Part shown: piece after piece, positions 789 through 53,231 of the stretch
Layout: every line of letters starts with the position of its first letter
Position numbering within the stretch: the stretch's first letter is position 1
Origin: Centroberyx gerrardi
Taxonomy: Eukaryota; Chordata; Actinopteri; Beryciformes; Berycidae
NCBI RefSeq assembly: GCF_048128805.1
Contig: NC_136020.1
Location: 11,461,153-11,525,152, forward strand
Length of the DNA stretch: 64,000 bases
Direction: 5' to 3'
Position numbers and translations under genes: made by a program
Notes under the pieces: model-generated
What the model was told of the DNA's origin: nothing
The model's database searches: none
What the model saw: only the letters and a program-made list of their open reading frames with translations

Positions 789-3700
789 TCAACAAGAACG
801 TGGTGAAGGAGCGAAGAAGTAGAGGGCCAAGAGGATAAGGTAGACGACCACCAGAGCAGTACCTGCACACAAAACAGAACGCATTATAATTGTGGCCAAT
901 AGGAAGTATCTATCATGACTGGGGCTATACATCAGCCAGACTACAAAACAAGGCCACAGGCACATGTCCTCTTTTACTTGCTACTTCATGTATCTGCATG
1001 GTTTGAATGGATAAGTGGAGATAATGCTGATTGTATGACATTTTAATAAAAGCAGCCTTTTTTGCTAAACGCATTTAGGATTCTCTGCTCGTCCCTGGGA
1101 AGTGATGATGTCCGTTTCTGCTGTGGGGAAATCTCTGCATCATTACTCACCCTGAAAGTAGTCACATTTTCCATCCATGAAGATGTAGTTGACCACAATG
1201 ACACTGAAGATGCTGGCCCAGAGGTGGATATCACTGAAGACGAGCACGAATCCCACATCCTGGAAAAGTCAGCCAAGTCATGAGAGAAACAATTCCATTA
1301 CACAAAAAATAAAAAGCTACAAAAATCTGCTTCATTGATGTACGTTTTAACTCACGTAGAATGCGTTGAAGAGGATGAGCAGGGGAATCTGAATCATGCA
1401 GACCTGCACAGCTATACAACTGCCCACTTCAAGGCTGAAGACAAACATTTATACAAGTTAAAATTTCATAAACACTTGACTTTACAATGGCCTGATTCCT
1501 GTGTATTGACCTTGGTATTAGCCTATGGGAAAACTACTGTAGGGACACAATAATGCTGAATACGTGCTAGATGAAAATCTCTACAATAGATAACTTACTT
1601 ACAAATGTGTAAGAATACATGTACAAATGTGCAAGTTGTAAATTGCGCTATTATACCTTTTAAGTACATGATGCATTTGGTAGATTTTCATCAAGCACTT
1701 ACACAGCATTGTGTTCTTACCATAAATCCCATAGACTAATAATAAATTGGACAGCAATTCAGTGGCTCGTACCTCAGGCTGATATTGTTCTGCAGTGCAA
1801 ACTGGATCCCGTTGACAATCTCAGGAAGCTCGGGCACCATGGCCAACACTGTGACACCGATGAAGTACTGCAGCAGAGGGGACAGGGACATCTTTCAATA
1901 CAATGAAACACACCGACTGAGGAAGACTCAAGCCTGTCAAGCCTAGCAAATACCTTAGGAATGAGCTGCTGAGCTCAGGTGGTTTTCTTGGCAGTTTTTC
2001 TCTCTACACACGTCAGGTGTAGTGAGGTTACATAAATATTGTATTTCGTCTTACTCCTCTTGTTGCACACAGTGTATTCAAAAAGGCACCTCTTTTCCCT
2101 GGTGTTACATGAATATCTCAACTCCCAATTTGGGCATTTTTAAATTTCTACTTGAATAGAAGGGTTCCTTAATATGCCAAGATGGTCTTGAATCGAGGGC
2201 CCATGAAATCTTTTTTCCTTCCTTTTTGAAGATTAAACAGGTTTAGAGTACCTGGGAGACGGAGGAATGGGCTATGATGGGCTGGATGTTCTCAGTGGTG
2301 AGGTCGGCACAGGCAGCCATCAGCAGGGTGGCGACAATCAGCACGGCCAAAGCCCTCCAGCGGGACCAGTGGACTACATGGTGGCCTCCTGGCAACACAC
2401 ACACACACACAATAAGCGGACGAGCAAGCACAGGCACAAATTTACAACTTACCTCACTGTTGGGAAAGTCTCTCTCCCTCCCTCCTCCACCTACATCCAT
2501 TCAGAAAGTCTGAACTTTACTTTATGTTCCCACACTTTGTTATTCACCCTTACATGCAGAATATATTTACATGCACCCCATCAAAGCTGACAAGCATGCA
2601 CAGGCACAAATTTACAACTTACCTCACAGCAAGGGAATGGCTTTCCTTTTCTCACTCGCATGCACAAACACAATAAGGTAACAAGCAGGCCACAGGCACA
2701 AACTCAAAACTCGTTCCTTCACTTACAGCTTATTCACTCCGGCATGCATGAGAACACCGCATGCACACAGCTTCTCACCACACACACACCTGTTCCCCAG
2801 TGGCTGGTGGTGATAATGCTGGCATTAATGGATGTGTAGTCCGTGACCAGATGGCCAACAGTGACCTCACTATTGGGGTGGTAGGTGATGGCGCCCTCAT
2901 GTGGGCACTGACCGTGTCCATGGCCCCCGTGGCCGTCGCTGATATGGATATCATAGATGTGGGAGTGGGTCTTCAGTGTGAAGATGAGGCCGATCAGATA
3001 CGCGGCAGGCAGCATGACGGAGATGGTGTACACCAGGGGCCTGGAGACACACAAAGACATCAAATAACTACTGAGACACTGTTCTGGTCCTTTGCTGCAT
3101 TTTGCTGAGCCAATTACTTTGGGAATCTGCTGCAAAATAAAACAAATCTAATGCAGGTATCAGCTGTACTTACTCAATATGGGACAGAACCAAATGCGGG
3201 TCAGTTTGACTCTGTTAAAAACAAAGAATGACGGGAAAAAATAGAAGATCATACAGGTGCTCACTGCCAAGGTTTATACATTATATAAGGTTAAGACAAC
3301 AGCCATAAAACAATCATGTTTCCCTGGCAACAACCGGAATGTCTGGCAGCTGCGGGACCCATGAAGTTTTAATCTCTATGGTGGGAACGACTGAACTGTG
3401 TCGATACAAACATCAAAGCAATGGAGCGGAGAGAAAACGCGGCACACGTGAATCGCACTATTGTTCTAGACTGCTGGTCCCCTGTCAGTCCATTGTGTCG
3501 TTTAAATCTGGAATAAAACTACATGTTCTCAAATTAGTTCAAGGCCCAGCATTGAACAAACAAGGCTGCTTTGTCGCTCGCTCTCGTCTGTGACAACACG
3601 CTCGGGAAGCACGTTGCCTCTGGATTCACACAAGATCGTTCGCTGTCTCTCCGATAAGCTGGAAGTCACAGGGAAAGTTGTGACCCACCGTGTCGTAGTG

Positions 3701-6700
3701 ACAGTCCTTGCAGACGAAGGGTGCGCTGACGTTGCCCGGGGTGTTGGTGCAGCTCTCACACATCAGATTACCAAAGGTCTTCGAGAAGAGGGTGGGAGCA
3801 AACACACCTGGGGACAGTATTACAGAACGTGGATAGGTGGAAAGCTTTATGAATCTATTAATTGAGGCATTATGGTTTAGGTGTGTATGTGAGAAGGGAG
3901 CTGCCATACATACCTCCTATGGATATGAAGAGCAAGGCTGAGCTCACCCCTGCTGAACGGCTGTTAAATCGCTGCTCCCTGTGCTTAATGCCCCCGATGA
4001 TCATACAGATACCCTGGGCAGACGACAGAAACACACATACACACACAGTCAACAAGAGGTGAGTGCATGTGTATGAGCATCTGTTGACCCATTTCAGGGA
4101 TGAGTTGCCATGATTGGCGCCTGATTTGACACACTTCCGCAATTGTGACCCAAGTGGAAGATGTTGGAGCCTACAAAAAAAAAATCCCTCATGTCCTTGT
4201 AATTACCACTAGGAGGCTGATGTGAATGGTTATTCCTTGTCGGCAGCTTGAAATTTACGGCAAATGTGATATGATGTGAACGTGCCATAAGTACCTGGAT
4301 GGTCCTTGTGTATCTATGACAAACTTTGGGATGTTCCTTGTTAATGTTGAATGTTAACTGATGTGTGTGTTGTCTGTCTGTCCTCCTCAGACACTCACAG
4401 GTATGAACAGTATGCACCCCAGCAAGGTCCCAGTGAGTGCAGCTTTCACAATCTCCTCGTAACACTTGCTGGCGGCACGGTGGCCCTGCAGCAGGGCCGT
4501 GATGTAGAACGTCATCTCTGTGATGGAGCCAAAGGTCGCATTCACCACCGCTCCCACCGCAAAGTTACTCTGTGCTGCAATGCTGCGGGGATACGCACAG
4601 ACCAAGAACAGACTCAGCACTACACAGACCTCTCACCATCTCAAGTGTCAGGGTTAAAAAAACATGTCAAAACTTCCTGTAGTTTCAAAGTACATACATC
4701 ATGAAACTACTAGAGGTATGCTATGAAATATCGATTTCAGGTTTTGCAGAGTATCTGACCGCCATCTCCTTAATAAGTAGTATGTCACAAAACAAAAAAC
4801 TCTTTACCTGGCAATACCCATGCCAATATAGTAGGAGAGAGGGATGATGGAAGAGATGGCCGTGGCGAACTTTGCCTCCACGCTGAAATAACGGTGGCCT
4901 CTGTCTGTGTAGCCAATGATCAGAGTGACCAACACCAAGGGAAGCAGGTCTGCAGGGAACACAGACTTAAGGACAACAGCACAGCCAATAGACAGACCAA
5001 TACAGATTAGGAAACACTGACCAGGATGACAGTGAATTTATAAGTCATGATGGAGATCTGTAGTGCACAATGACAGAAACAAAGAGCTTGTTCAAAATCA
5101 TGTCTGTCTGGAGATGGAACATGCCATATTACTCAAGCAGGAGGCTAAATGGCTTCAGTTTATCTTAGCTTTTTTAAGAACATAGACTTTGACAAGACTA
5201 TGGGGGATTGTCTGACTCCTGCTGGTCATTGTAGGAGGTGCAGCCAGTTGCACACTTGTTGCTGAAACTATTAGAGAAGTGTGTCATTTAGAGATATTGG
5301 CCGATATGGATTTTTCATTTGCATTACACCCATCCATTTTTGGATCTGTGACCAGACAGACACTATCCCCACAACAACCCCATGATTCATGTTGTGAGTA
5401 CAATTTACTGCAATGCATTCCAATGGTGTCACAGCTGAGCCTAGCAGATTGGATCTTCTCCCTTTAAATCTCTTTGCTTCTTTCTTACAAGCCACTGACA
5501 TGCCTCCCAGTCATCTGTTCCCCAGCGGGCCAACAAGGATACTGAGAGCGAAGATGTTGATTCCCTGGACAGTGTATTTGTAGTAATACACATTGAAAGC
5601 TCGGTAACAGCATAGGACCACCCTGGTCTCACACCCATGGGTCTGCAAAAGAGAACAAAGAACACCTCAGGCTGCAATTTCCTGATGAAGTTTAAGTAAC
5701 AACAAAAGTTACAGCAGACACTCCAATTAGATTGGCTTCTTATTGGACTGTTCACCACAGACTGCAATAGTAAACTAGAGTGCCATCAACGACAGAACAA
5801 GTGGGGTGCTGCAGAGAGTGCTTCAGTCGCACACTACAATAGTCAAGTAGGGGGCTATGACAAGCAGACAGTATAAAAACTTTAGGGCTGGTGGTTTGAC
5901 AAGTGCAGCTAATAAAAAAGGAAAATAATTGCACACTTGTCATTTCTCTTGCCTTGACATTTACTAACCACTGACATTTCAGGAGGTTTCCATGTACCTT
6001 TTCCAGTTTGTGGATCTGGACGTCCTCTGGTGCCATGAGGAGGATGGTGCCCAGGGTGCGAGCGTTCATCTTGGCCACAGGGATGGTGAAGACCAGCAGC
6101 CAGGAGAGCACACAGGCCAGGGAGTGCACCACAGCCAGCAGAGGGTAGCCCAGCACCAGCCACACATAGGTGTTGAAGCGACACTGTATGGGACAGGGAC
6201 AACAGCCACACAATGAACCAAAACACACAGACAGCAGCAAAAAATTAAAAAAGGATGAGTTAGAAACTAGAAATCCCTTTAAATCCATTAATGTTCTCAT
6301 GACTCTCACTATCCACAAACACTTTTCACACCAGACTAGTGATCTGGAAAATAAACAGGTCAACCATCAGTGTGAACGAGTTGACCCGGTTAAGTCAAAC
6401 CCTCAAAAGCCCTGGTCAAGAGGGTTGAGACCCGGTCAAACTCTACTCCGCTCTGTGTAAAAACTCAGTGTTTTACCCATGTTGAGGTGACACCTCCACC
6501 AGATCAGCATACCATAATATTCCTGGGTCATGGGTCAAAGGGGTAATAGTCAATCTTTCTGGTTGTGTAATTTGATTGTTTATCATTTGTGCAGCACTTT
6601 GTAACATTTTTTAAAGTGTTGTACGACTAAAGTTTATTATTATTAATCAATCAAGACTGTTTCAGCGAAACTGTGAATTTAATATCTGTATCAATGTAGG

Positions 6701-14652: not shown

Positions 14653-23636
<8,984 letters not shown>

Positions 23637-28822: not shown

Positions 28823-31800
28823 TTCCTTTGAAAATACTGACGGTTGAGTATGAAGCCATCCAAACACACTCTAGTATGTTGTATGCAAGCTATCAGCAAA
28901 ACCAACATGTTTACTTTGGAAGTATCACTTCTACTTTCTGAAGAAGACAAAAAGGCTGGACCTCATCTTTGGATATGAGACAGCAGGAGAAGGGGACAGA
29001 GCAGCGCTCTCTGCTGGGGTTGTCGGGGGTGCAGTTGAAGTACATGTTGTGGGACCAGTCAGTGTAGGTCACACCACCACAGCAGTTGAACTAAGCACAC
29101 AAATAGGCATTTGGGGAGGAGCAAATTAGAAGATATGCTAGACATATGTAAATATAAAAACAGCTCTGGTATTTGTAAAATATGTACGACAGTATGACAT
29201 GAATCTTAGAATATCAGGATGTCAATTAAACAAACAAACACACACACAGAGTCTGTATTTGGAGAAAATCCATACCTCTTTCTGACCAAAGTCAATAAGG
29301 TTTTGTAGATCAATGTCATCTCTGTAATGGACAATGGCGTTGTTGATGATCTCACTCACTTTATCCCGTGCCTTGGCAGAATACAGAAAAGTCATTTCAG
29401 TATAAAAAGATACACAACATATACAATGTATAGACTGTATGTATAGACACAGTTGTCAAATCAGTGCAATCAGTGAGAAAGACACATCAACCTATTGGTA
29501 ATCTTTTGTGGTGATTTGGTGACAAATTAAAATAAAGCTGTCTTTGTTATTGCCCTATAATAACCCCAGAAATCCAATCCATTCTCAAGCTCTTCATGCC
29601 TTTAAACAAACAAAATCAAGTTAAGTCTAACAAATCTGTCTGTGAGCAAACACTCTGATTTGATTCAACAGACAGAACAGCAGAGGGCGCTCTTTGGCAA
29701 TCCTCTCATTTCTCCCTTCATACTTATTAAGCAAAAAGGGCCCAAAGCAAACCATTTATTAGTAGTTTCACCATTACATTAAACTGCTGGGAGAAAAAAA
29801 CCCTGTATAAAGCCCAGCCTATGTAAGTGTATTTCAGGATATGCAATTTGGACTATGATTTATAATGTAAAAATAACATTAAATTTTAGTGGTCAGTATG
29901 GCCTCTCAATTATTCAATGAGAATCAACTTTTTCAAGGGTATTTTCAATGGACATGTCTGTGTTCAGGCAATCAATCAATCAGAAGCAGCCTCACTTATC
30001 AAATCCAAAAATACTGCAGTCTTGATCAAAACACTGTTATTGAAGCCCATTAAAAAAGAGAATCTCACTGTTGTAGTAATATTGATACATTACCTTATCT
30101 GAGAAGATGAAGCCCAGGATACCAGCAGTCAGCTGGAGTATGAAGATCACCGTCAGACAGATACAGAACTGGGTGGAAAAAGAGAGATGGGTACACTTTC
30201 AAAAACACTGCAATGTTTAATCTGTTTAGTGTTAATGTTTCAGAGGATGAATTCTGCCTGTTAAGGAAAGGACCCTGTTGCGACTCAGTGAATGGATAAA
30301 TGAATAAATCAGTGAATGAATGAGACTTTAGAGAAACGTGCAGGAAAAGTAAGAAACCTAAGAGGGCTTGGACACGGACCTCCACTAGAGAGACAATGGA
30401 AAAAATAGACAACTAGAAAAATTGTTTGCAGACTGCTGACTGACCGTCTGCAGGAGGCAGATGTTTTCCCGCAGGGAGCCCACACAGCCACAGAAGGTGA
30501 GGAGGAACATGAGGACCCCCACGATCATCAGCAGCATGGCGGGGTCCACCGACAGACAGGCCAAGGCTGCCTCTGAAGTGAAGAGGGACAGAGAGGGTAA
30601 AGACTGGTGTGAACTGAGCCAGGCTGGCTTCTCTTTCAGGGACACAATTCATCCTCTGAAGCATTAACACAAAACATTTATGAAGGAGTTTTTTAAAGCC
30701 TCTCTGACTCTCTCATACTAAGTAGAGAGAGAATTTCAAATGCTACAAACAGTGCCTGCAAGTGGAATTACTTTACCCTTTTTGCATTTCTTACATTTCA
30801 TTTTCTGGACTAAAGCATGAACAATGCAGACCTTGGATGTTGTGTTACCGGTCTGCTAAAGGCATGTTGCTGACAACATGTTGCTGACAACACGTTGCTG
30901 AAAGCATGTTGCTGAAAGCTTCGGCCTATTGAAGGACGCTTTATGGAAGCACAAAGCCACAACACAAGGATGGTCGTGACACTCGATACTCCCAGCCTCT
31001 CACACCGAATGTGAGGAATGACTGTATCCCATCAATGGAGGATCATTTACCTGCATGCTTCGTCATGCGGGCGTACACGCCGATCGACACCATCACCAGG
31101 GCGATCAACTGAAGGAGGGAAGAAAAAGACAACTTTTTTATTTTCACTTTAAGCAGGTATTGTGTGTTTCAAAATATCACAGATGGGATAATGAGTGGAA
31201 AAACACTATGATGAGTTCTCCCACTTTAGGAAACCTTTATTTATTCTGTGTTCATACTTGTCTGGGGAGTGGCGGCTTTTCCCAGAACACTTCATCATGA
31301 TATGTAAGTTACAGCAATGTGAGGCAGGCATGCTTGGATATTTGCAGAAATGTGAGTCATAAAGAAGATAAAGATGCTAGCACCGATCAAATCAAAGCAA
31401 AAGTTTAAAATATACAGTCAAGATCAGAAAGAATCCACCTTGAACTTGTCAAACATGACCCAGTAGGAGTCAAACTGCTTACTGTGGCAGTGTTAGAAAA
31501 AGACCTTTTCACTCAGCACTCCTCTCCACTCAGGGAGATCCAAGCTCAGTCTCAATAGAATAATAGGGAGCCCTCAGCAATACTCTTCCCTCCCCAAATC
31601 AAATGGATCCAGTTACAACAGGCGCTGCTGCACCTTCTTGGGAGGGAACTGCTGCTGGAACAAACCAGACGAGACACCTGAAGCAAACAGTGTTTTTGTT
31701 TTTTTTGTTACATAATCGACAGAAAGATAGTGAAATGGGTGTAATCTGATTCTGTGGCTTTGTGGTCTACATGTCTGCAAGCGTTTTATTCTTGAAATGA

Positions 31801-36424: not shown

Positions 36425-38555
36425 ATGGAAACCGTGTGGAAAAGCGAAGGTTTGTGCAATTATTTGTCTATCTACAAAGCTAAAAGCTAACTGACGAAGC
36501 TGGCTAACTGCTAGCTGTATTTATGGTGGAGACTCGAGGTAGCAAGAGACCAAGCAGGTGTTCTCCTTGTTTGAGAAGATAATAAAATGCATCACTATTA
36601 CCTTGGTTACTGTACATTTGAGAGAAAACTTGGGACGTGGACAAATTGCCTACAGAATAGTAACCATTTAGCTACTAACGTTACGTTATAACTAATGCGT
36701 TGTCCTAACTAACCTAGGCAGCTGTTTGTATTGTAGCCATCCTCTGACACGAGTCTGATTACTGAGCCTAGCTCCCAATGCACATAGGTTATTAATGTTA
36801 AATTGGCCCTAAAACATAATTCAGATATGCCACCTCTGCTTTCTGGGACAGGTATGAACAGGAACAAGTTTTCCTAAGTTAGAAAGCAGGGCACAAGGAC
36901 TGTAATCTGTAAAACTGCCTTTCCCAGCCTGTTACAGAACACAAACATTGTCCAACGTAGACAGTAATTTTCAACAAGTTTTGTAAGTGTATCAATGAAT
37001 CTGTCTGCAAGTGGCTAGGGTGTGCCAATGAACAGGAATATTTAAGTACAACAATACAATGAGTGAGAACTTGTTAATCAGCTTGTTAATGAAAATCGTT
37101 TTTAAATACAGCTACCAATCTTTCTTTAGCCACAAGTGAAAAACATGATGGGAATATGGTAGTAATTGCATGCACCATCTCCCTGATCAACAGAAATCCA
37201 TTTAAGATTTGTTTTTGTAATAATCTTGTCTCCCATCTCCTTGCCAGGTTCCCCTCTTCCTCTGCCCTCCCTACATCTCCTGGTTCCCCCGGTGCGTCTT
37301 ATGTCTGCTTTCATGTGGCAAGTAGCCCAGCAGCGCAATGTGATGCAGTATGACAAGCTGGTGGAGTTTATCAGCGTGGTGACGGAGATCGTTCCAGAGC
37401 TTCTGAGCTCCAGTCAGAGAGCTGAACTCGTCCTGGGACTGAGGGCAAAGGTGAGCAATTGATCTGAGATGTGATTTTCTTTTGCTTCTGTGTCAACTTT
37501 AACATATCTGGCGGTCAGCTCTGTTAAGTAACTGCAAAATGGTACGAATCGATAGTTTCATATTGCTATCGCAGCTTGGCATTGCCAGAAAGAGACTGGT
37601 ACTATTAACTGCAGGTTCAAGCAGATATAACCCTGCACTAATATTGCTGGCAAATATTCGCCTTTTGTAAATGTAGTGGTGCTTATATTGATTTAAGGAT
37701 GCACTGATAAAATAGTATAAAGTTAGATTTTTTTGCACAGTAACAAATTTCACTTTTACACGAAATCTTTGAGAAAAGTGTGCATCTTGCAAGGGCTACG
37801 AATCGATAATGTTTTTATGTTTGTTTTAGCAGTGAAACAGCCTTCACTGTATCCCTTTGTCTCAATGACTCTTGGGATACTTTCCATTAAGATGTTTATC
37901 TTTTGCTGTCTAAAAAATCTTAAGTGCATCACCTTAATTTTCCTTTCTTTCCTTCCCACCTTGATTTGCTCTCATGTGCATCAGGATGATATATTGTAGT
38001 TTTGGTGTTGGAGGCAGTGGCGTTTGGGGGTATTTTTAGTGTCGGTTCCTAATTTTGGTCTCTTGCAGTGGAGATCATTTTATATCTGTAATGGGAGTCA
38101 CAGTTTTCCCTGGTGTTTCCTGCTCTCCTGAGCTGAGTCTCCCACCTCTGCTCTGTTGCAGCTGGTTCTGGAGTTGTGTCGTAGTGACGGTCTGGCCAAC
38201 CTGCAGACCATCCAGAGCCACCTGGATAAAATCCAAGCCTGCAGCGCTGACCTGAGCTCCACTCACCGGCAGGTGGGTCTCCTCAACAAATCTGAAGCTC
38301 CACATTCACAGCTGCTCCATATGGAGGAATGATCCACAGACTTGAAAATCTGAGGTGCTCTCACAGTCATGCAAATGTAATTATATGTAATGTCATTACT
38401 GTAATCTGATTCCAAAAAGTTAATCACAAAAATAACAGCAATCAGATTACAGATACAACAATTATTTTCATTATCGGTTAATCTATTTATTATGGTAGTA
38501 ATGAGTAATGGATTACACTTTGAATGTTGGTGGTGGTGGTTTTGACCCTTACACT

Positions 38556-38606
<51 letters not shown>

Positions 38607-39917
38607 GTTTCTGTGGATAAAAGCAAGAGCTAAACACCTAAAATGTGAAATGTAATGTAAATGTAACCTTTCCCATCCTTGCTGATTTTCTGCACCTCTT
38701 GACAGACCAGCACTGAAGTCCTGAAGGCTTACACCAACTTTTCTAATCTGGTTCAGAAGTTGCTGGATGTTCCGTTTGAAAAGGAATACTTCTTCCAAGT
38801 GAGTCTATTTCGCTCTTCTGTCTGTGAGAAATGAATATCTCCAAAAGATCAAGGAGTAGGAAAATAGACCTGTTTTATTAATCAAGGATGATAGATTGTT
38901 GATGTTAATGGATTTATATGAATTTCAGGAGCTCATCCTTTAAAGACCCCAAATTCATCCTAAAACTTACCTACCAGTTTTTAACTAGATCCAAACATGT
39001 GGGTGGGTGGTAGACTAAAATGTGACAGAAGCAAAAGTGGAGTTACAGTTTTTAATCGACAACAGCGGTGAAGTTTCCTGTCTGTTGGGTAACCATAGCA
39101 GCATGTGCTGATAATTTAAATGCCAAGTGTTGTTGCTGTTTACCAAGACTCTCTGACTGTTTCTGTAGGAGGTTTTCCCAACAAACTACGGCTCTGCCTA
39201 CGACCAAACGCTGCAGCAGCTGGTGTCTGAGTTCCTGTCCAGGCTGGAGCAGCTGCTGCCAGCGCCAGACTACACACAGGTACTGAGACGGAAATGTCAG
39301 AAAATGGGAAAAATAATAAATCTCTCATTTGGTTTTACTGTGGTTGAACATTTTCACTTCCTAATATGAGCTGCACGATTAAGGCTAAAATGATAATCCT
39401 GCTTATTATGTAAAATGTCTCAATTGTTTGGTGAACAAAATTATTTTGTTTTACTTTTTTCTATAGTACTAATATAAACATCTTGACTATTTTCCATCAC
39501 AAATAAATGACACAAAATGTTTCAATATTGCCCAATTCTGTGATTATTAAATGTGGAAATCGCGACATAGTGCCATTATTCCTAGTATTCTGTTGCATCA
39601 CCACCATCTGCACTAGAAGAATCAAATTTGGAGTCTCTCTTGTCAAGCTGCATCTCTTTGGTCTTCCCTCTGCGCCTCAGACAGCAGCATGGCTGGCTGA
39701 AACAGCCGGTGTAGCAGAAGATTTCGGCCGGCATCTGTCTGACCCCTTTGCCCTGAAGACTCTGCTGCTTCACCACAGACAGCTAGGGACTCTCAGCACC
39801 CGTGAGTTTCACAGAGACTGGGCAGATCGTTTTCTCTCACAGAGGAGGATCTGCCACGAGACAAAAGGAATAAGTCATGACTGATGCAGTTGCATGTATG
39901 TGTAAAGGAACAAGGTG

Positions 39918-39948
<31 letters not shown>

Positions 39949-41527
39949 TCGACAAAGTAAGGCAGATTTTTTCTACTGTTGCACTCATTGTTAGTCTTCC
40001 TGGATAAATGCATCGTCTAAAAGCCAGATATGTAAAATGTATATTTCTTCTTCTATTATAGGTCCTTCATGCAGCCGGAAAGACATCATCCTCTCCACAC
40101 TGGCCCTCCCTCCGGAACTGGGAGTGGAGAAATACTCTGAGCTGTACAGTGAGGATGATGATTATAACGATGAGGAAGAGAGACTGGCAGTGCGGGACTC
40201 AGAAGATGAAGACTCGAGTCAAAGCTCGGACATCGCTAGTGACGACTGGTCGCCAACAAAGAAATCAGGTTAGACAAAACTGCAAATAACTAGCTAGCTT
40301 GGGTGTCTGAAGAAAAGTAATGATCCAATTGAAAATGTTGATATGAAACATATGATTGGGCACTGGTAATTTCTCCAAAGACATCATTAGTCTTCATCCA
40401 TAATTCTGTCTGTTTGGATAATATTGTGAACACTACAGTCGATCTGTCATACCAACATGCTGCGCTGCCTGCTGTTCCCAGGTCATCTGTCCAGTTTATT
40501 CATCTGTCCTCAGTGTCCATTTGCTCACCGAATAAAGAGGAGGGTCCAAGAGCACATCCAGAGGGAGCACCGGACGAGAGCTCCCCTTAAGAAAAAGGAA
40601 TCTGTGAGAAAAGCCAGTGGAAGGACTGAGCAAAAAAAGAAAGACTTGATCATTGAAAATAAGAAAGGACACAAACGGAAAAGCGGCTCACAGAAAAACG
40701 GGGATCGCAAACAGAAAGACACAATCGAAAAGAAGAGGGAACGCAAACAGAAGAAAGGCAATTCGGAAAACAAGAAGGAGCAACGCAAGCGGAAAGAGCC
40801 CACGGGGGAAGACAGGAGGTTTCTGAGCACGCGACCAGTGAACAAGAACTTCACAGAGGAGGAGACCAAATGCCCAAAGTGTGAAAAGGTGTTTGAGCTT
40901 CCGAATCAGCTGAAGACCCACCAGAGGCTGCACACCCTCCCGTACCACTGCAGCCAGTGTGAGAAGGGGTTCACCAGCAAGTCCGGCTACTACCAGCACC
41001 AGAGGCTCCACAAGAGAGGACGGATATTCGCGTGCGCCCAGTGCAACAGAGGATTCCTGTGCACCTATTCGCTCAAGCAGCACGAGCGCAAGCACGCCGA
41101 GGGCCCCAACCACCTGTGTGCGGTCTGCGGGAAGCGCTTCAGCAAAGTGGGCATCGTACGGCACATGCTGATGCACAGAGGGGAGAGGAACTACCTGTGC
41201 ACCACGTGCGGGAAGTCGTTTCTGTCCTCGGGAGAGCTGCTGCTGCACACCCGCTCTCACACGGGGGAGACGCCCTACACCTGCACCCACTGCGGGAAGG
41301 GTTTCTCCAGCAAGAGCCACCTAAACGTTCACATTCGCTCTCACACGGGCGAGCGTCCGTACCCCTGCCCCCAGTGCCCCAAGCGCTTCCTCACTCTGAA
41401 CTGCCTCAAGAGACACACGCTCTGCCACGACGGGGTGAAACCGTTCAAGTGTCCGAACTGTGGCAAGGAATTCTCCCAGCAGGGTAATTTGAAAAGACAT
41501 TTGACGACTCACCAACCTGACACATAA
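36425..41527 (+). CDS. TINF2_N (TIN2-like) domain / C2H2 zinc-finger fusion protein (8 exons, 638 aa)
   Basis: Exons: 36425-36449, 37248-37450, 38162-38272, 38706-38798, 39169-39279, 39681-39801, 40062-40268, 40482-41527; 1917 nt including TAA, with phases matching at all junctions. Residues about 9-215 are helical and resemble the N-terminal domain of shelterin protein TIN2 (TINF2). Key matches are LGLRAKLVLELC (human LGLKAKVVVEL-like), a central FFQEVFPTNYG, and FLSRLEQLLPAPDYTQTAAWL. In TIN2 this domain binds TPP1 and TRF2. Residues 240-285 are acidic and serine-rich. An isolated C2H2 finger is at about 299-320, followed by a Lys/Arg-rich linker (321-420), then eight C2H2 fingers (421-633). 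Finger linkers TGETPY and TGERPY are classical. One finger (HLCAVCGKRF) has an 11-residue loop between cysteine and histidine instead of 12. Exon 1 is only 25 nt (METVWKSE) and is the least certain part. A DNA-binding nuclear role is likely; a telomere role is inferred. Confidence 0.85.
38559..38604. repeat. (GT)n microsatellite
   Basis: About 23 GT units lie in intron 3 of the zinc-finger gene. Confidence 0.97.
38608..38668 (+). repeat. Retroelement tail fragment
   Basis: The phrase tgtggataaaagcaagagctaaacacc then aaatgtaatgtaaatg matches the common fish tail TGGATAAAAGCGTCTGCTAAA...AATGTAATG. It directly follows the (GT)n tract. Confidence 0.5.
39918..39950. repeat. (TTTC)n microsatellite
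   Basis: Eight units of tttc lie in intron 6 of the zinc-finger gene. Confidence 0.95.
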
Positions 41528-41595
41528 TGTGGAGTTTTCGCTGTCATTCAAATTCAGAGATGTTACCCTTCCATGTTTGCAGAAAACCGGTAGAA

Positions 41596-41601
41596 AATAA
41601 A
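41596..41601 (+). terminator. Poly(A) signal AATAAA of the zinc-finger gene
   Basis: AATAAA lies 69 bases past the TAA stop, giving a very short 3' UTR ending near 41620. A GT-rich stretch (tcctttgttgggatgtg) follows. Confidence 0.65.
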
Positions 41602-41624
41602 AAGCAATTGGAAAATATTGAAGT

Positions 41625-44600
41625 AATTTCCTTTGTTGGGATGTGATCTGCATAATCAGAGCAAACTTCTTCCTTCATTCAAATCTTTGGAGATGTTCAC
41701 CACCTCAGATTGTTGGAGTCAAGTATTCTGTAGTCGCTACAAACAAATGTTCAATTTTGCAGTGTTTGTTAATTAGAAACAAATGCAAATTAAAACAAAT
41801 GAAGTTCCTCAGGTTTGCTTTGGTTTCTCCATTACGTTTTGCAATTACAGTAATATTAACCCCTTATTTTCCCTCACACAGCTTTGTGGTGACAACATGT
41901 TTTCCCAAATGATAAAGCATGTCTACAACAAATTAAAAATGACAATCTCATTGTTGGCCAGAACTGGAAGTCACTGCCTTTTGCCTTTGTGGGGTAGTTT
42001 AATGACACACACACACAGTTGTCTGGTGCAGAACAGTTATCACTTTTATAAATGAAAGAATTAAAGGTCATTTTAATGTAAAAGCTCCAACATTGTTTGC
42101 TTTCTATGTTGTAAAAGTTCAACCAAGGTTTGGTTTCTTTGGGTTCCAGCTATTTACATTACAAATATTGAATTTAGATCATTTTAGTAAGATGTGAATT
42201 TTGTTTTAGGCTAATTTCTCTGTTTTAGATATTATGTAATTATGTTATTATAGTGCTGTTTTGCCATGTAATTCCAGTCTTTTCCCCCAAATGCCACATC
42301 TAAGTTCCTTTGAGAACCATAATTGTGAGCAAAATTATAAGCACTCCTGCTATGTGAAAAATAATGTATTTCTTAACAGTTAAGTGATCTAAAGCAATCC
42401 ATAAACATATTAGTGAAAACAGCATATAAACTGTATTAAATCTGTGACAATGGGCTGAAGGGTTAGTGTTATCCCACCAAGCATTGAGTAGTGGGCCCAC
42501 ATATTTAGTTACATAAATCAGGAATCTTGTCTTCGTGCAATTACAGTATTAGAGGTTTCTCTGCTGATATTGTTGAAGGTTATACAATTACTGCAAGTCG
42601 GCTGCAAAATTATTTAACAAGTATCAATACTAGTATTCAGTCTGGACTAGAATCAGAGAAAACAGAAGATGGGACTAGAGTACGTTTGAGGTTTACATCG
42701 GTGCAAACAGTAAAACTTTGTACATTAGAAAAGCTGTGAGGCTTTGTAAGTTTAGAGCCCAAGCTTGTAGCCATAGCCGCCTTTTAATTGATGGTGAAAC
42801 TAGTGACCCAAGAAATACGCAGGCCAGCTGTCAATGTGAAAAGGTCGACCCAGGTAAATAGACTCTGCAAAACAACCCTGGTGCAGATGAAACTCTGGTC
42901 CACTTGATGTGAAAGTTAAGTCCTTTCCCCTTTCGTGAAGCCTCGCCTCCTCGGCCTGTTTTTGTGGCACACGAGATGTAAAATGAACAATATTCAAGAG
43001 TGGTGTCTCCAAAGTTGAGACATTACAGCAGTGACAGTGAGGCTAATGAAACATAACAACATTTGGCTCAGGAACGCTTGAATAAAGTTGTACGCGCTGC
43101 TTGTAGTTGTGTGAAGCTGTCGTTCGGTGATTTAGCCAGTTTTTATTTTTGCTTAGATTCCTAAAGAAACTGACTGTTTATTCTTGTTCAGCAACATCAT
43201 CATAAGAAGAGATGAAGCAGGAAGAGGAGAGGGAGGAAAAGGAGGAGAAAGAGGGGTAGGAGGAAGAAAAGAGGTGGAGGAGGAGGAGGAAATAATCCAG
43301 TTACCCCTTCCCACCAATACTAAGACTACCAGCATCAATACTTTCATCACCATCACCACACTATCAATATCATCACCCCCCACCTTTAATATCACCACCC
43401 ATCACTCTGCCTCTCAGCATCATCATCATACAAATAAATCACAGTCAAATCAAAAATAATCCTTTGCATTCATTTGTCAGTTTAGCCTTCATTTCTGTTT
43501 CTTGTCTTATTAATTTGTACTCGATTTAATTTTGTTCATTGCTGACTAAGTACTGGTTCATTTTTAGTTTGGTTTTTTAATAAGTGATCCTTACAATGAG
43601 AAAACAGAAAAAATGAATATAAAATGAACATAAAGAACTTCTGGCCAAATGTATTTCCTGATATGAACCAATGTGAAAGTTCAGTGATGTGACTGTTTAT
43701 ATGCTGATACTATTCAACGGTAAGAATGAAAGCATCAATAGATGATGTGGATCAGTTTATTAGTGGCTGGAGGTAAACATGCATAGGATGACCTAAAACA
43801 ACAGATCTGTACTTTCTAGCCAATCCAGTCCTTTGTTGTTCCATGAAGCTGATATGAGCTGAGTTATTGGCACTTTTTACCTTAACTGAGCAGCAAAATA
43901 GGATTTTGTTTGTTCATTTGGCTTGAATACTTTCTTTAATTGGAAAATACAAAACCCATGCATTTGCAATTTAGAATAAGATGAGAGCCTGTATATGAAG
44001 TATTTTTCTCCATCTGTAAGTAAAGATAATATGTTCATCAGAAGAACAGCATGACTGGACCCAACAGAGAAACAACAAGAAAATTGTACTAAAGTAATCT
44101 ACCAGAGGTTCATGCATATGACAACGTGCAAAGCATTCTGTTGTTGGGCCTCAGCCAACTGTAAAACGTCACCAGGTAGGACAGGGCTTTCATCAGGTCT
44201 CTGTCAAAGTCATGTTTAGCAGGAAGTCTGGATTTTCATTGCAGCATCTGTAGCATCTGCAGCATCTGTAATCTGCAGCATCTGTAATCTGCAGAATCTG
44301 TAATCTGTAGCATCTGTAGTCTGCGGCATCTGCAACATCTGCAGCATCTCCCTGAAGCTAAGTGATAAACTCCAACATCATCAGCAAATTGTTAGATGGA
44401 TTTGGTCAATCAGACTGGCAATGTGGAGGAGGTTGATGGAAGAAAAGTAGAACCATACCTAGTTGTTCAACTATCAATAGTGAGGCTGTCTGGGATCTCG
44501 GTTTGAGATCACAGACAGATTTGCAATTCTTGCATAACAGATACAATGCCTGTATTGCACAAATGCACTGAATGTACAAAATATTAGTTACATCTTCCTG

Positions 44601-45004: not shown

Positions 45005-45359
45005 TCAATTCCCCTCCTCCAGTTCACCGATCAAAAGGTCTTTGCTGGGCAGCTTCATGTTGCTCAGGGCAACGTTGACTTGTTCCACCAATCGCGGGGC
45101 GAACCTCAGCAGACCCTCGTCCCTGACCAGATCACTCCTCTTCAGTGCCGTGTTCTTCTGCCGCCGCATGTGGTAAAGCTGTCCCAGCTCTGGGCCAATC
45201 TATGGAATAAAATGAAATAAATGAATTACTGCAATAAGAAAGAAGGTAAAAAGAAATAAGAAAATAATTAAATCAAACAGAAAGCAAGTAAACCAACAAA
45301 CACAAATAAACCCAAATAAGCAATTCTAAATGAAATATTGAATGAACACACACACACAC

Positions 45360-45402
<43 letters not shown>

Positions 45403-48400
45403 AAATGGAAAATGCATCTTTATGTCTTTGGATGGCGCACATTTCTCACTTTAGTCAAAGAAGAGTCAGTCAAAACCAAACTTTTCACTGCAATTTCTTT
45501 GTGATTTTCATTGTTTGTTCCCAGACTCTATGAAATCAGAAGCAAACAGCCTGCCAGCCTCCTCCTGACCTTCACTGTGCCTCCTCCTGGGTTGTGCAGC
45601 TGGACGGCGTGGACCTCCATCTGCAGGACGCTGCGGGGGTTTACCACCAGCTTCCCTGTGGTGAAGCCCGCGTCACCTGGCTCCTTCAGCACATGGAGCA
45701 GGAAGTTGACCCCAGGAAGCCCCGCCCACTCTGCTACATCAAACCTGGAGGGTACAGCAGGTTTTTTAATGTTCTTTCTTTCTGTTTGTTTCTGCTCTCT
45801 TTATGTCGTAATATTGGTAATTTGTTGGTTTGTTGAGTCCAATATGGTTTCTGAATTTTGGGGTTTAAGGAGATATGAGTGTTCAGGGAGTCACAGCACA
45901 AATCTCCAATTATAGCTGATTGTTTGTTTGTACGCTTGTTTTATCCCTTTTCTTTCAGATGATGATGATTATGATTATTATTGTTATTTCATTGCTTCCT
46001 TTTGTTTGCTGGAGGGAGACGTTTTTGTCAACTACAGCCTGTACTACAAGTTGTAATTAATTCATTCACTCAGTAACACATTCACTCCTTTCTTCCTAAC
46101 CTGCTGTCTTTCTCCTTTTCTTCAATAGGGAAGATGTTGTTGGCAAAGTAGAAGTTGACGTTTTCTCCATGTTTGCTCTCCAGTGTGGACAGGAGCTCTG
46201 CCCAGCTGTCACTACCTGAAATACAACAATATAATACAACATAACATAGCATAACATAACATAATTTACAATGGAATTATTATGCACACCACCATCTTTA
46301 TCCCAAACACACTCTCACCCACACTCTCTCTCTCTTATGTGCAACACAGTGTGTGTTTGTCTCTCTGTCACACACACAGACACACACAGCTACCTGTGGG
46401 CAGTATGACTTCGTCTGCGTCATGCATGAACAGGTATCTGGTCTGGTACATGTATCTGTACACACAGTCGTTGTTGGCAGGTATCTGGCCGTAGTAGTGC
46501 AGGTCACCAGGCGACAGGGAGGGCAGCCAGCTGGATGATACCTTGAAGTGGGTGTCAATCGGCCAGGACAGCACCTCAACCAGACCCACCTGGGACGGTG
46601 TTTCACATTACATTAAGGCCGTTTAGCTGATGCTCTGACGCAACAGTAGAAAAAGCCTCGATCATCAGTAGAAGTCAATGCACAAACACATGGGCAGGAC
46701 CAAATCTGTAGCAGGCTGATCCAGCTCGAGGCCTTGAGTTTAATACATGTGCCACAGAGCCATAAGAGCTGGAAGGCATTATAAAATGGCACTAATCTTG
46801 CAATTTTCTCTTAAGTCTTTGATTATTACCAATACACAGGATCTGAGGTAACTATTGCTTGGCTGAGGCAAAATCTGAAACCTGGCTGAATGATGTCACA
46901 GACAAGACCCAATCATATCCTGCTCAAAGCTTCAGTTTTATGACTAATTGGTTATTAAATAACTTGAACATAAACAGCAGTTGGTGTTCAGTCTACTCAC
47001 TAATATATCTGTGACAGATGGGTTACCGACAATAAGTTTAATGGTCCTGGTGTACACATCTATCCAAGTTCCTAATTAATTATTTCTAACTTGAAGTTCC
47101 AAACATAATGATTGAAGTTTTCTGTAGACTATGGTTGGTTGTGATTATTAATGGAAATGTCAGTGTGTCCACTGTCACATGTGGCATAGCAAGCTCAAGA
47201 GACTAAACAGCTACTCTGGTTGCTATAGTTACTGTACCTGGTTGCTGTAGTAACGCAGCACCTCCTCCATGGCAGGGGAGCAGCTGCTCTTATAGACAAT
47301 GACCCTCTGAGCCCCTAGGAGGCGATACAGCTCCATTGCCTGGAAATAAAAATGTAAAAATGCGAATTATTTGGCTAATCATTTGGTTGATTTTAACGAA
47401 ATGCTTAGGAGGGAAACCAAACGGCTAAAACAAAATGGCTGCAAATTGGAAATATGAAATCAAATAAAAGAAAGAGCTAGTTATTGCTCAACTTTATATC
47501 ATGTAGTGTGATGTATAATAATATGCATTAAATAGATGTAATGTCACTAACCTGGATGAACTGAAGCACATTGTCATAGTGATTAAACATGGTGGACAGG
47601 CACACAGTGAAGTTCAGAGGGAAACTGGAGCGGCGTTCAGCCTGGTTCAGGACAGGCAGGACGGTGATGTCATTCTGCTCCACGCCTTCAGACAGCAGCC
47701 CTGCGTACCTGTTAAGTTTCAGTGTCAGAAAACATTATTTCCTATAATACACTCATCTTAGATATGGGTTCACAGACACGAAAACAGGGAAATGGCGTTG
47801 CAATTGTAAAAGCAAAAGATCAAGTGTTTAAAAAATAGATTTTAGCTAAAGTGTGACTGAATACATCAATTTACCTGAATTTGAATAAAACAATCACTGG
47901 TTACATTTACTGCACTTTGCTTTGTTTGCACATAAATAAATTGTAGCAATATGTAGCCCTTCAAATGACACCTGTTAAACACCCTGACTGGTTGACCATG
48001 TTCCTGGGTTTATTTTCTTCAACTACTAGGCTATCTAGATGCTGAACCCCCAACTTTTATAAAAGATTTGAGATATGTTTCAGAAAAAGTGGATTCTATT
48101 TGACAAACTACTTTAACTGTAATCAATCAATCAATCAATCAATCAATCATGTACTGGTTATCTCTAAGGTGCGCATGTGTAACTGTAAGACTGTACGGCT
48201 TTACTAAAAAGCACCATGTGTTCTGTGTCAACCTAACCTGGATAAATAGACCAAAACGCCACACACCCACATCACACATAATGTTTTTATCTTTTCTTAC
48301 ATTTCCTTTGTTTTTCTGCTCTTGAAGATAAGAGTGATTTATCCAGGATATCTTGACACTTCACCACTGTTATCTCCCATCCACACCCTGTTACACACAT

Positions 48401-51400
48401 TCACATCCGCTGGTAGAAGGGCTCATGGGGAACAATGACACTACTATACTACTACTATACTTTTTACTCCACTACTACATTTATGTGATGGCTGTACTTA
48501 CTAGTTACTTTGCAGAATAAGGTTTTACATGCAAAACATACAATAAGCTCATAAAATATGATGCATTGTTAGAGTTTAAACTCCCCAACAGTATATGGAG
48601 TAGTTAGATCTACAACATTAAAACACTTCTCACAGCTTAATGCATCAATAATTTAACACTCTGAAAGGGACTGTTCTTCACAATGAGTACTTTTACGTTT
48701 GATACTTAAGTACTGTTGAAGGAAATAATGTTATCTTTATAGTCAATGCATAATATATACTTAATCAATATAATCAAAGAGAAATATATATTTGCACATT
48801 CCTTTGATCAGACAGCACACATACATGTACTATGCACAGTAAGAAGAGAGTAGAGAGAAAGAGGCCTTTGATACCAGCTCATGCCAGTAAGTTTCTCACA
48901 GACAAGCGAGAATAATGGGATTGTTATTGCCAGAAAGTGAGGTTGTATCCAATATTGCACGCAGAAGAGCATTCATATCAAGGACAAAATGATCCAGGAA
49001 TTAGGGAGGAAGGCTCCTAGTTTCGGCCCTGAGGTACAAAACAGCTGGTGCTTTCCATCACCAATAGATGGATTGACGCACTGACCATATTCCGACAGTT
49101 AGACCAATTAGAGAGCCACATTAGGTAAAGTTTGGAAGCAGTCTATCCTTCTAGGTGGAGCATTGTGTGAAGGGGGGTTAGAAGATAGAAAAGAACCTGA
49201 AGATGAGAATTCTTGGTCAGACCCTTCACATAATCAGTTGTATCGTGTACTCTGTTATCTGAAGAATAAAGCAAAGGAAATTCTCATTCGTTCTGTGTTC
49301 AGCTCCTCGAACCTGAAGTGGAAGAGAGAAGAAAATCCACTACGACAGTACATTTTACTGCTAATACTTCTATACTTTTACCTAAGTAAATTATTGAATG
49401 CAGAACTTTTACTTTTAATGAAGCATTTTTCCATTATGGTATTGCTACTTTTACTTTAAGGGTAACCAAACCCCACCCAAATCTGTGGTGAAGCCTGACA
49501 CCTAATGGTGAAAAGTAGGGTAGTGAACTGGCCTTGGCCCGGCCTGGCATAAGAGGTGGAAAACGTACTCAAATCCAGCCAAATCAGCCATCTGCTATTG
49601 GCTGGTCTTTTTGCCAGGTGATGTCACCTTCTATAGAGTAAACAGGTGGTGACATTTCAAAGACCAGCCAATAGCAGATGGCTGATTTGGCGGGATTGGA
49701 GTACGTTTTCCACCTCTTATGCACTTATTCTACTGCCAGCATTTACTGTTATGCCTACTGTACATTAGAAGACTAAGAGCTAGACTACAAATGGCATAGC
49801 ATCTCACATTAATCATTTGTTTAAAGCTTGTCTTTCCATCACAGAGCCAGAAATGTTTTTCCGACAGTGTGGCAGGTCACCAGGTAGCTCGTATTCAAAA
49901 AGGTCAACTGAGAGTGTGTGGTACCTGGGTCGGCAGCCGTCAGGTATCTGACACAGGAAGTCCCCTGTGCTGTAGGGGAAGAAGTAGTGGGAGGGGTGGG
50001 TGTTACGTTCTGCTGCCACGGTAACCAGACGGCCGTCGTTATGGCAGCAGAAGACGCAGCGACTCCGCTGTTTGTCCTCTTCCCGCCACACGATGGCGAG
50101 CAGGCGGACGCTGGCCTTGGCCGCCCGGTGCTCATGGAAGGCGTTGAGCAGTGATGTTTTGGAGCCGTGAATGGGGGTGAAGGGGTGGGAGCCGACCTTC
50201 ACACCACACCGCTCCCTGGACTGGAGGTTTCGAGAGGGAGAACAGAGGGAGGAGTCACTGAGACCACGAAGGAGAGAGAGGGGCGGGGTTGATTCAAGCC
50301 CACAACACTGCCAGTAGATTGTATGTGCCCGCTTATTAGATCTCTGCTGTGGTTAACTAGCTTACTCCTCTATTGTGAAAATGTGACTTTATTAATTGTG
50401 TCAATCACAGGCCACCGTAAGCTGTGCCAGAAATCATGCTGTTGCAAGTCTTGGTCTCTGACAGCCAGTGGTTGATAAAGCTCATAGATTACTTAATGGC
50501 ACTTTAATGTTGCATCAGCAGGTTGTTCTCACAGTCATTGTACTGTAGCTGTTTCTTGTCACATCACACATGACATTTTTGGTATGCAAGTCCCAAGAAC
50601 CTGTAGTCACCTCCACCATCAGGAGTAACACAAAAGTCAAGTCTGTCAATCACTGCCACTAACCACAAGTAATATTAACACAAGAGTCAATAGAGTATAG
50701 TAGAGTTTCAGTAGGCCAACAGTGCGGAAGTCAGCTCTGCCATGGTTCGCTGGCAGCAGCTGCACTATAACTTCAGTGGGTTTTTGAATGTTGTTTTGGA
50801 CTGATGCCAAAAATAAGCTCTGTGTTTAACGCAGGCCTGTCTTGTCAATGTCTTGTCATACATTTTGTTATATGAGATAATTTTGACAAATCAACACTGC
50901 TTTCATTAATTTTAAAGCATAATTGTAATCACTGCAATCAATGCAAAACTGCATGGGATCAATGCACTTGATCCCATGCAGTTTGCTTATAGGCCACACA
51001 GAGGAGTAGAGGATGCCACAGTCACTTTGCTTAACTTACTTGTTAAACACTTGGAGGGAAATGGGTCTCATCCTAGACTTCTATTTGTTGATTTTTCCTC
51101 TGCTTTTAACACAATTCAACCCCATATTTTAACCAGCAGGTTAAAATATAGAACTTTTAGAACAATTTGATTTGAGTAACAATCTTGTGGGCTGGATCCT
51201 TGACTTTTTAACTAATAGGACACAAAGAGTGAGGGTAAATGGAATTCTGTCCGACCAAGTTTGCGCCTCAACTGGCTCCCCACAAGGATGTGTGCTTTCG
51301 CCCCTATTATTTATCCTCTACACAAATATGTGTCAGAGCAGGTGTGAAAATAGGACCATCTTAAAGTATGCAGATGACTCTGTTATTGTTAGTCGGCTCC

Positions 51401-53231
51401 AGGACAACGACACCTGCCACGGCCCGGTCATCGACGACTTTGTCAAGTGGTGTGAGGAGTCCTATCTTCAATTAAACATATCTAAGACAAAAGACATGAT
51501 AATTGATTTTAGAAGACATGCCCACACACATGAAGTCACATCCATTAAGGGCCAGACAGTGGAATGTGTGCAATTTTACAAATATCTTGGGACAATTATT
51601 GACTCAAAACTGAACACTGAAGAAAATTGTGAAGCCGTGTGCAAAAAGGGGCACCAGCGTTTGTTTTGTTTGAGGAAACTGTCCTATTTCCACATCGATA
51701 AAACCATGATGACCTTATTCTATCGTGCTTTTATTGAATTGATTTTATCTTTTTCTTTGGTGTCATGGTTTGGAAACCTATCTTTAAAGAACAGAAACTC
51801 TCTGAATCAGATTGTGAAATGGTCTAGTTGGCTGATTGGTGAGTCACAGCTTAACCCAGCGTCCCTGTACACCAGACAGTTACAGCGGATAACTGACTCG
51901 ATCTTAAATGACGACTCCCACCCTCTGCACAGTGAATTTCAGCTTCTTCCTTCTGGACAAAGGTTTATCGTCCCAAAGTGCAGAACAAAGTGGTATAAAA
52001 ATAGCTTTGTTCCAGCAGCCGTCACTCAGATTAACAAGTCGTAGCAACATTGCACAGATGATGTTTATTTATTTATTTATTTTATCTTTTAGTTTTAGTG
52101 GTTTAGTGATTTGGAACTTTGAGCCTACTTTTATTATGTTTGTCTACTGTTTGTGTTGTTTCTAAAATGTGTGTCAAGATGGATGACTCTCTACTGCAAA
52201 CCAAATCTACCTACGGGTACAAATAAAGTAACCTGAACCTGAACCTAATCCATGTTAGTAAAAAGCTAATGCTAGGCTAACCTGTGAAAAAAATAAACTA
52301 CAGCAGAGGTTGCATTCCTCCAACATCACAAACACAAAGCTTCAGCTTCAGGCAAGCTAGCACGCTAGCAAATTCAAAAACCTACAGTTTAAGAAACTAC
52401 TATTGTAAAAAAATATAAATCTGTAAATATTCTGCTTTATGACGTGTTATTGTGTGACAAACCCATTGCAGTTCAGTTTCTAAAACAGCCATTTGTTAGC
52501 AGCTTACTGTATTAGGGCGCATAAAACCTTCAAAATTCACGAAAGGGATGTTTAATGGTTTATTTTATCTCACAGAACGAAATGTTAAATCTTTCTTAAG
52601 CTTGTCTTAACCACAGACCTTATTTTCAGGCTTTTAACCAAAACCCCATTCAAATCGTAATAACTTTTCAGCCTAGGGAACCCACGGCTCAAAAATGCGT
52701 ACTCACTTCCGGGTTTTAGGACTCAAAACCGCTCTTGGTCCAAGGTGGCGGCACACCAATGAACTGTGGTCTACTACCCACTTTTGAACCATTATTTGTG
52801 ACAATGAAACATAAAACCTCAAATATGATCATGTCTGTATATTATGAACGGTAAAAGTTATTACTGAGGTGATTTACTCACTACATACAATTCCTGTATT
52901 AGATGTGCATGAGTGTGTGTCGGGCCACTACTGCAACTTTCTCCTGTTTGATCAAAACTTTGCTTAAAGAACTTTCCTCCCCCCAGCTGTAACCCTTCCT
53001 CCAATACAATCAATGGCAATTTGCGATCCTGGTCACTCTATTGTTCCTGGTGAGACCTGGTGAATCAGTTTCCCTGAATCTAGCTATACACCTTTCCCCT
53101 GTTCCACTGCAGTGACTCACCAGCTCATCTGTTGTCCAGTGCTGCTGAGTGAAGAAAACTACAACTCCCATCAGAGAGACCAGCAGAGCCAGGACCAGGA
53201 AGACCCTCCTCTGCTGTCTCCACGTCACCAT
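45005..53231 (-). CDS. Glycosyltransferase family 92 protein, type II membrane (8 coding exons, 448 aa)
   Basis: Coding exons in order: 53231-53121, 50220-49925, 47708-47552, 47339-47238, 46589-46394, 46215-46101, 45744-45570, 45199-45005; 1347 nt including TGA, phases consistent. Residues 10-30 (VFLVLALLVSLMGVVVFF) are a signal anchor after a short basic cytosolic tail, the layout of a Golgi type II enzyme. The lumenal domain carries the GT92 (formerly DUF23) hallmarks: FPLNFTVCLSTMFNHYDNVL, a KSSCSP motif, SWPIDTHF, GDLHYYGQIPANNDCVYRYMY, and the catalytic DxD-type HDADEVILP at 278-286, which should bind the divalent metal and nucleotide sugar. Characterised GT92 members, such as C. elegans GALT-1, add beta-1,4-galactose to fucose on N-glycans. 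The sugar used here is not known. An untranslated exon ends at about 54065. Intron 1 carries an L2-like LINE and other repeats. Confidence 0.92.
45338..45537 (-). repeat. Dispersed repeat copy B with (GT)n tail
   Basis: On the minus strand this reads tttcatagagtctggg, agtttggttttgactgactc, gagaaatgtgcgccatcc, ccattttgtatg and then (GT)n, matching copy A at 35753-35975. It lies in the last intron of the GT92 gene, about 30 bases from exon 7. Confidence 0.75.
45345..45399. repeat. (CA)n microsatellite
   Basis: A CA run with one cg interruption forms the tail of repeat copy B on the opposite strand. Confidence 0.95.
46600..46760 (-). repeat. Possible fish SINE/LINE fragment
   Basis: The start, acattacattaaggccgtttagctgatgctctgacgc, is the inverse of the common fish retroelement tail (gcgtctgctaaa...aatgtaatg). 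The rest is degenerate. It begins within 20 bases of GT92 exon 5. Confidence 0.45.
48121..48149. repeat. (AATC)n microsatellite
   Basis: Seven aatc units lie in the GT92 intron between exons at 47708 and 49925. Confidence 0.95.
49547..49722. mobile_element. Palindromic MITE with about 64-bp inverted arms
   Basis: The left arm starts gcataagaggtggaaaacg and the right arm ends cgttttccacctcttatgc. The arms pair over about 64 bases with a few mismatches (aaatccagcc versus aatcccgcc). A loop of about 45 bases itself holds a smaller inverted repeat (aggtgatgtcacct). There is no coding capacity. This is a classic fold-back non-autonomous DNA transposon. It lies 200 bases from GT92 exon 2. Confidence 0.8.
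50968..52255 (+). mobile_element. 5'-truncated LINE (L2/CR1-like reverse transcriptase)
   Basis: The element enters inside the reverse transcriptase at DPMQFAYRPHRG, continues through LLFVDFSSAFNTIQP, then STGSPQGCVLSPLLFILYTN and the catalytic KYADDSVIV, and then the thumb region to a stop at 52044. A frameshift with a stop near 51165-51172 splits it into two open pieces (50976-51170 and 51172-52044). The endonuclease and all 5' parts are missing. The 3' end is tacaaataaagtaacctgaacctgaacct, a short tandem tail typical of L2-type elements. It lies antisense in GT92 intron 1 and is inactive. The clade name is from general likeness; L2 is the best guess. Confidence 0.85.

Follow-up and report, generated by a model that had tools for sequence, protein, structure and literature searches.

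The stretch analysed here (the window: 64,000 nucleotides of the fish Centroberyx gerrardi, RefSeq assembly GCF_048128805.1, contig NC_136020.1, forward-strand positions 11,461,153 to 11,525,152) holds a genuine gene for a TIN2-paralogous C2H2 protein: eight exons between window positions 36425 and 41527 (+) join a TINF2_N domain to nine zinc fingers. On balance, we read the product as a nuclear C2H2 regulator, in which the TRFH-type domain would be an effector module that docks a partner other than TPP1. The gene itself appears to support this (an intact frame with its splice sites, a full-length TINF2_N domain scoring near human TIN2, and nine fingers), as do comparisons with published proteins: N-regions of zebrafish TIN2-2 and TIN2-3 that are negative for TPP1, likeness to zebrafish TIN2-2, and replacement of human F152 by a serine (S164).

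Gene model and domain architecture

Joining the exons by hand at consensus sites yields an in-frame model of 638 residues. All seven introns are GT-AG, and each of them contains between 4 and 17 stops when read through in frame. The guanine-cytosine (GC) content is 0.54 in the exons (0.68 at third codon positions, GC3) and 0.38 in the introns. The stops in the introns, the Pfam matches of single exons and the GC contrast between exons and introns argue against an artefact. The first exon (36425-36449) carries the start codon and residues 1-8 and is open from the ATG to its GT donor. Beyond the last exon a pattern scan of 41501-42200 finds AATAAA at 41596-41601 (69 bases past the last base of the stop codon), likely the polyadenylation signal. 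From these sequence features we infer that the N-terminal exons are spliced to the finger exon.

When the whole 638-residue protein is searched, residues 32-181 match Pfam TINF2_N (PF14973) over the full profile (positions 1-149 of 149) with an E-value of 3.9e-58 and 196.4 bits, against a curated whole-protein cutoff of 29.4 bits; human TIN2, over the equivalent stretch, reaches 191.3 bits with this model. Exons 2-8 were also searched singly (exon 1, with its 8 codons, was left out). Exon 2 (37248-37450) matches profile positions 1-45 (1.6e-16), exon 3 (38162-38272) positions 46-80 (1.3e-05, 26.1 bits), exon 4 (38706-38798) positions 83-112 (4.6e-05, 24.2 bits) and exon 5 (39169-39279) positions 113-149 (8.5e-14), the match stopping at the exon end at residue 181; the bit scores of exons 3 and 4 lie below the cutoff, which is set for whole proteins. 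Since exons 2-5 each match singly and in order, the domain match does not depend on how the exons were joined, and the whole-protein and single-exon matches together rule out a chance likeness. Among known structures, human TIN2 (TINF2, PDB 5xyf) is the sole significant match of residues 1-291 (5.1e-13; the three others are at 0.059, 0.12 and 0.9), and 43 of 157 aligned residues are identical. The two proteins thus share the same full-length domain at a near-equal score, whereas they differ at F152, which is a serine in the fish protein, and in the [FY]xLxP motif, which the fish protein lacks. Human TIN2, for its part, is not known to have zinc fingers.

The segment after the domain continues in frame through exon 6 (39681-39801), which includes residues 205-214 (ALKTLLLHHR), and exon 7 (40062-40268), which encodes an acidic linker; neither exon has a Pfam match. 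The most acidic 40-residue stretch begins at residue 248, between the domain and finger 1, and carries a net charge of -15. Exon 8 (40482-41527) encodes all nine fingers and the stop, with a basic linker (at about residues 323-382) between finger 1 and fingers 2-9. This linker is rich in Lys and Arg; its 60 residues from 323 onward carry a net charge of +18. The nine C2H2 patterns begin at residues 299, 421, 447, 475, 503, 530, 558, 586 and 614; the last eight are consecutive and the first is set apart. The spacing between the cysteine and histidine pairs is 12 residues in eight of the nine fingers and 11 in the fifth (residue 503), and two TGE.P linkers are found toward the end of the protein. 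With these tandem patterns and with Pfam C2H2 families above cutoff, both in the whole protein and in exon 8 searched singly, the protein belongs among the poly-C2H2 proteins. Fifteen PDB relatives of exon 8 are found at 1e-25 or better, with arrays of ZNF568, PRDM9, the designed Aart, CTCF, ZBTB24 and ZBTB17; such matches to DNA-binding arrays are expected for any finger array of this kind. The make-up of the protein suggests that it is nuclear and that fingers 2-9 bind DNA sequence-specifically.

FxLxP is named as the TRFH-binding motif of TIN2 (PMC5309834). A pattern scan finds no [FY]xLxP in the 638 residues, and the looser [FYH].L.P yields only HLLVP at residue 18, N-terminal to the domain. 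The first-pass annotation had placed the gene at precisely the start and stop of our model, and had read by eye a TIN2-like domain with a C2H2 array in place of the TRF1-binding tail of TIN2. The Pfam match bears out the likeness, the missing motif and the nine fingers agree with the exchanged C-terminus, and the array is indeed fused to TINF2_N in frame. The span then given to the domain (residues 9-215) holds less well: the domain is real, but its extent in Pfam is shorter.

Shelterin docking and the zebrafish homologues

Three zebrafish TIN2 homologues have been cloned, which have the N-domain in common and differ in their C-termini (Xie et al. 2011, PMC3032778). A putative TRFH-binding motif is present in zfTIN2-1 alone, and of the three N-regions only that of zfTIN2-1 brought down zfTPP1; those of zfTIN2-2 and zfTIN2-3 were negative. 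The word zinc is absent from the main text of that paper, which does not call the zebrafish C-termini fingers. The earlier suggestion that fish may hold a family of such fusions is plausible in so far as three zebrafish homologues with different C-termini make more than one such gene likely enough.

We translated the primers in Table 2 of PMC3032778 and scored them against residues 1-291, with 2000 shuffles each. The start of zfTIN2-2 (MEALWTNKIED, against METVWKSE here) is weak by itself, with 152 of 2000 shuffles scoring as high; the end of its N-construct (residues 2-210; DMKSLLEHHT, against ALKTLLLHHR at 205-214) is the stronger match, with 7 of 2000 shuffles as high. Both matches are in register, as the construct ends at residue 210 in zfTIN2-2 and its match at 214 here. 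By the primer comparisons, zfTIN2-2 is likely the nearest reported relative. The likeness thus consists of the N-terminus and the N-construct end, at near-equal residue numbers, together with the common N-domain; the comparison is limited to these two short stretches, and the C-terminus of zfTIN2-2 is not described in the text consulted. For zfTIN2-3, the start of the N-construct (MWQVLQHKSL) resembles MWQVAQQRNV at residues 31-40 (1 of 2000 shuffles as high), whereas for the other primer end (LMEPMQEEE) nothing significant is found within residues 1-291 (1846 of 2000). The start of zfTIN2-1 has no match in the same residues (549 of 2000); for the end of its N-construct, on the assumption that the primer stops on a codon boundary, the figure is 1207 of 2000, the frame being uncertain.

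In human TIN2, the mutants A15R, F152A and E153A lose both TPP1 and TRF2, mutation of W198 removes part of this binding, and K160 is not important (PMC8262337). A15, F152, E153 and K160 align with M27, S164, E165 and Q172 of the fish protein, and W198 falls outside the alignment. Two of the three key positions therefore differ (M27 and S164) and one is kept (E165), a pattern that is suggestive but not decisive. The first-pass annotation had further supposed a working shelterin docking surface. With the negative zebrafish N-regions and the serine at F152 this finds partial support at most, even though E153 is retained. The fish protein probably does not dock TPP1, and is therefore probably no part of canonical shelterin.

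Several points weigh against the proposed regulator. E153, which human TIN2 needs just as much as F152, is conserved as E165; A15 was tested only as Arg, so that the methionine at M27 may be tolerated; and the change of F152 to serine may not be diagnostic. The failed TPP1 co-precipitations concern N-regions only, in 293T cells (PMC3032778). Orthology to zfTIN2-2, or fingers in that protein, would rest on the translations of two short primers, and the match of the start is weak. Finally, tinf2 mutants of zebrafish are reported to have no apparent defect and to reach adulthood normally (PMC11846949), so that a TIN2-like relative might be covering for tinf2.

Regulator, telomere bridge and other explanations

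KRAB, BTB and SCAN domains hold the effector position in other C2H2 proteins. In the regulator that we favour, the TRFH-type fold would occupy this place: with fingers 2-9 on DNA in the nucleus, it would dock a short peptide from its partner, and a chromatin or transcription cofactor would thereby be recruited to the target genes. A similar combination of an N-terminal effector module and a finger array is known from KRAB-ZNF and cyprinid FiNZ-ZNF proteins (PMC10547256, PMC11620358), and in FiNZ-ZNF, too, the module comes from one or more upstream exons and the fingers lie in one exon (PMC11620358). The fish protein differs in having TINF2_N as its module instead of KRAB or FiNZ; neither TINF2 nor TIN2 appears as a word in the main text of either paper. 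Zebrafish TIN2 homologues have been in print since 2011, and no description of a TINF2_N-C2H2 protein was met in titles and abstract starts among the matches listed by our literature searches, nor did queries on TINF2_N with zinc finger, or on TINF2, teleost, zinc finger and shelterin, return any literature. Architectures that combine TINF2_N with C2H2 are on record for fish in protein databases. A single scan of viral contigs, queried with the 291-residue sequence by itself and so able to reach only close relatives, returned 17 pattern stretches, none of them confirmed as a relative.

Compared with a bridge to telomeres, a gene regulator is more likely. Such a bridge would have the domain bound to TRF2, or weakly to TPP1, while the fingers carry shelterin to other genomic sites or bind near telomeres; it might even cover for tinf2. 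It is unlikely, though the likeliest of the alternatives. The TINF2_N score is on a par with that of human TIN2 (196 against 191 bits), E153 is kept, and the unaffected tinf2 mutants fit redundancy (PMC11846949). Zinc finger proteins are moreover enriched on telomeric DNA in vertebrate pull-downs, including those in zebrafish (PMC5309834, PMC11846949). All six shelterin orthologues, Tinf2 among them, were found on zebrafish telomeric DNA, and the passages concerned mention Tinf2 along with a number of zinc finger proteins, none of them TIN2-like (PMC11846949). The TPP1-negative N-regions of zfTIN2-2 and zfTIN2-3 (PMC3032778), the serine at F152 and the absent [FY]xLxP motif also speak against the bridge. 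No exact tandem of TTAGGG (at least 2 units, either strand) occurs in the 64,000-nucleotide window.

It might be argued that the fish domain acts as a decoy or competitor, which titrates TIN2 or its partners off telomeres, or that it dimerises among C2H2 paralogues in the manner of SCAN domains. The domain is shared with TIN2 and one fish has several TIN2 homologues, but titration of TPP1 is disfavoured by the negative co-precipitation of zfTIN2-2 and zfTIN2-3 (PMC3032778), and we regard this possibility as a little more doubtful still than the bridge.

It is very improbable that exons 1-7 form a TIN2-like gene and exon 8 a separate finger gene or transcript. Going upstream, the finger frame stays open into intron 7 and offers an in-frame ATG at 40457, from which such a transcript might be translated. 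Intron 7, however, measures 213 bases, holds neither AATAAA nor ATTAAA and has phase 1 at both of its borders; exon 8 follows a TTCCCAG acceptor, and reading exon 7 on into the intron gives a stop after one residue. These features and the matching phases make two genes unlikely. Least probable of all is a pseudogene or non-functional relic: finger 5 is one residue short in its spacing, but 638 codons are open over eight exons, with a GC3 well above intron GC.

Genomic setting and wider meaning

Upstream of the gene lies smoothened on the reverse strand (19223-21528, possibly on to 14656). Its Fz part (21211-21414, -) finds Smoothened chains first (4c79 at 3.6e-36, against 1.1e-4 for the best Frizzled chain), and at 19223-19513 (-) the match is to the Frizzled/Smoothened membrane region (4.7e-23). 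The frame at 14656-15225 (190 residues) has no Pfam match above cutoff and may be the Smo tail exon. A tetraspanin exon follows at 30433-30645 (-; 1e-07, its 32.3 bits just above the cutoff of 32.1). In human, TSPAN33 stands beside SMO, by which synteny this exon is perhaps tspan33, and TINF2 lies elsewhere. Zebrafish zfTIN2-1 is found near TPP1 on chromosome 7 (PMC3032778). The setting hints at a locus distinct from tinf2.

Elsewhere in the window, coding-like frames at 45555-45731 and 46428-46604 (-) show weak, below-cutoff matches to glycosyltransferase family 92 (0.038 and 0.024), and frames at 45011-45196, 47591-47728 and 49855-50301 have no Pfam match. Two coding-like hydrophobic frames (2836-3045 and 5998-6180, -) resemble an ion transporter by eye, with no Pfam match above cutoff. 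At 51145-52044 (+) a reverse transcriptase fragment (RVT_1, 7.2e-15) is followed by a stretch labelled ALKBH8_N (3.6e-08), by its look a non-LTR (long terminal repeat) retroelement. A tandem array of period 16 (6.6 copies) occupies 44240-44349, and Rfam gives 0 matches at the gathering threshold in the window.

TIN2 is usually regarded as a hub of shelterin. If the protein is truly a DNA-binding paralogue of TIN2, the TIN2 docking fold has a second use, and fish genes named tinf2 by their domain alone may be misnamed; the fish protein would also offer a natural comparison for the residues that TIN2 needs to bind TPP1 and TRF2. More tentatively, fish may have turned the TIN2-type TRFH domain into the effector module of a family of C2H2 transcription factors, its peptide groove directed toward a non-shelterin partner or toward TRF2 at non-telomeric sites. 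Given the normal zebrafish tinf2 mutants (PMC11846949), studies of fish shelterin must know whether such relatives share the work of tinf2.

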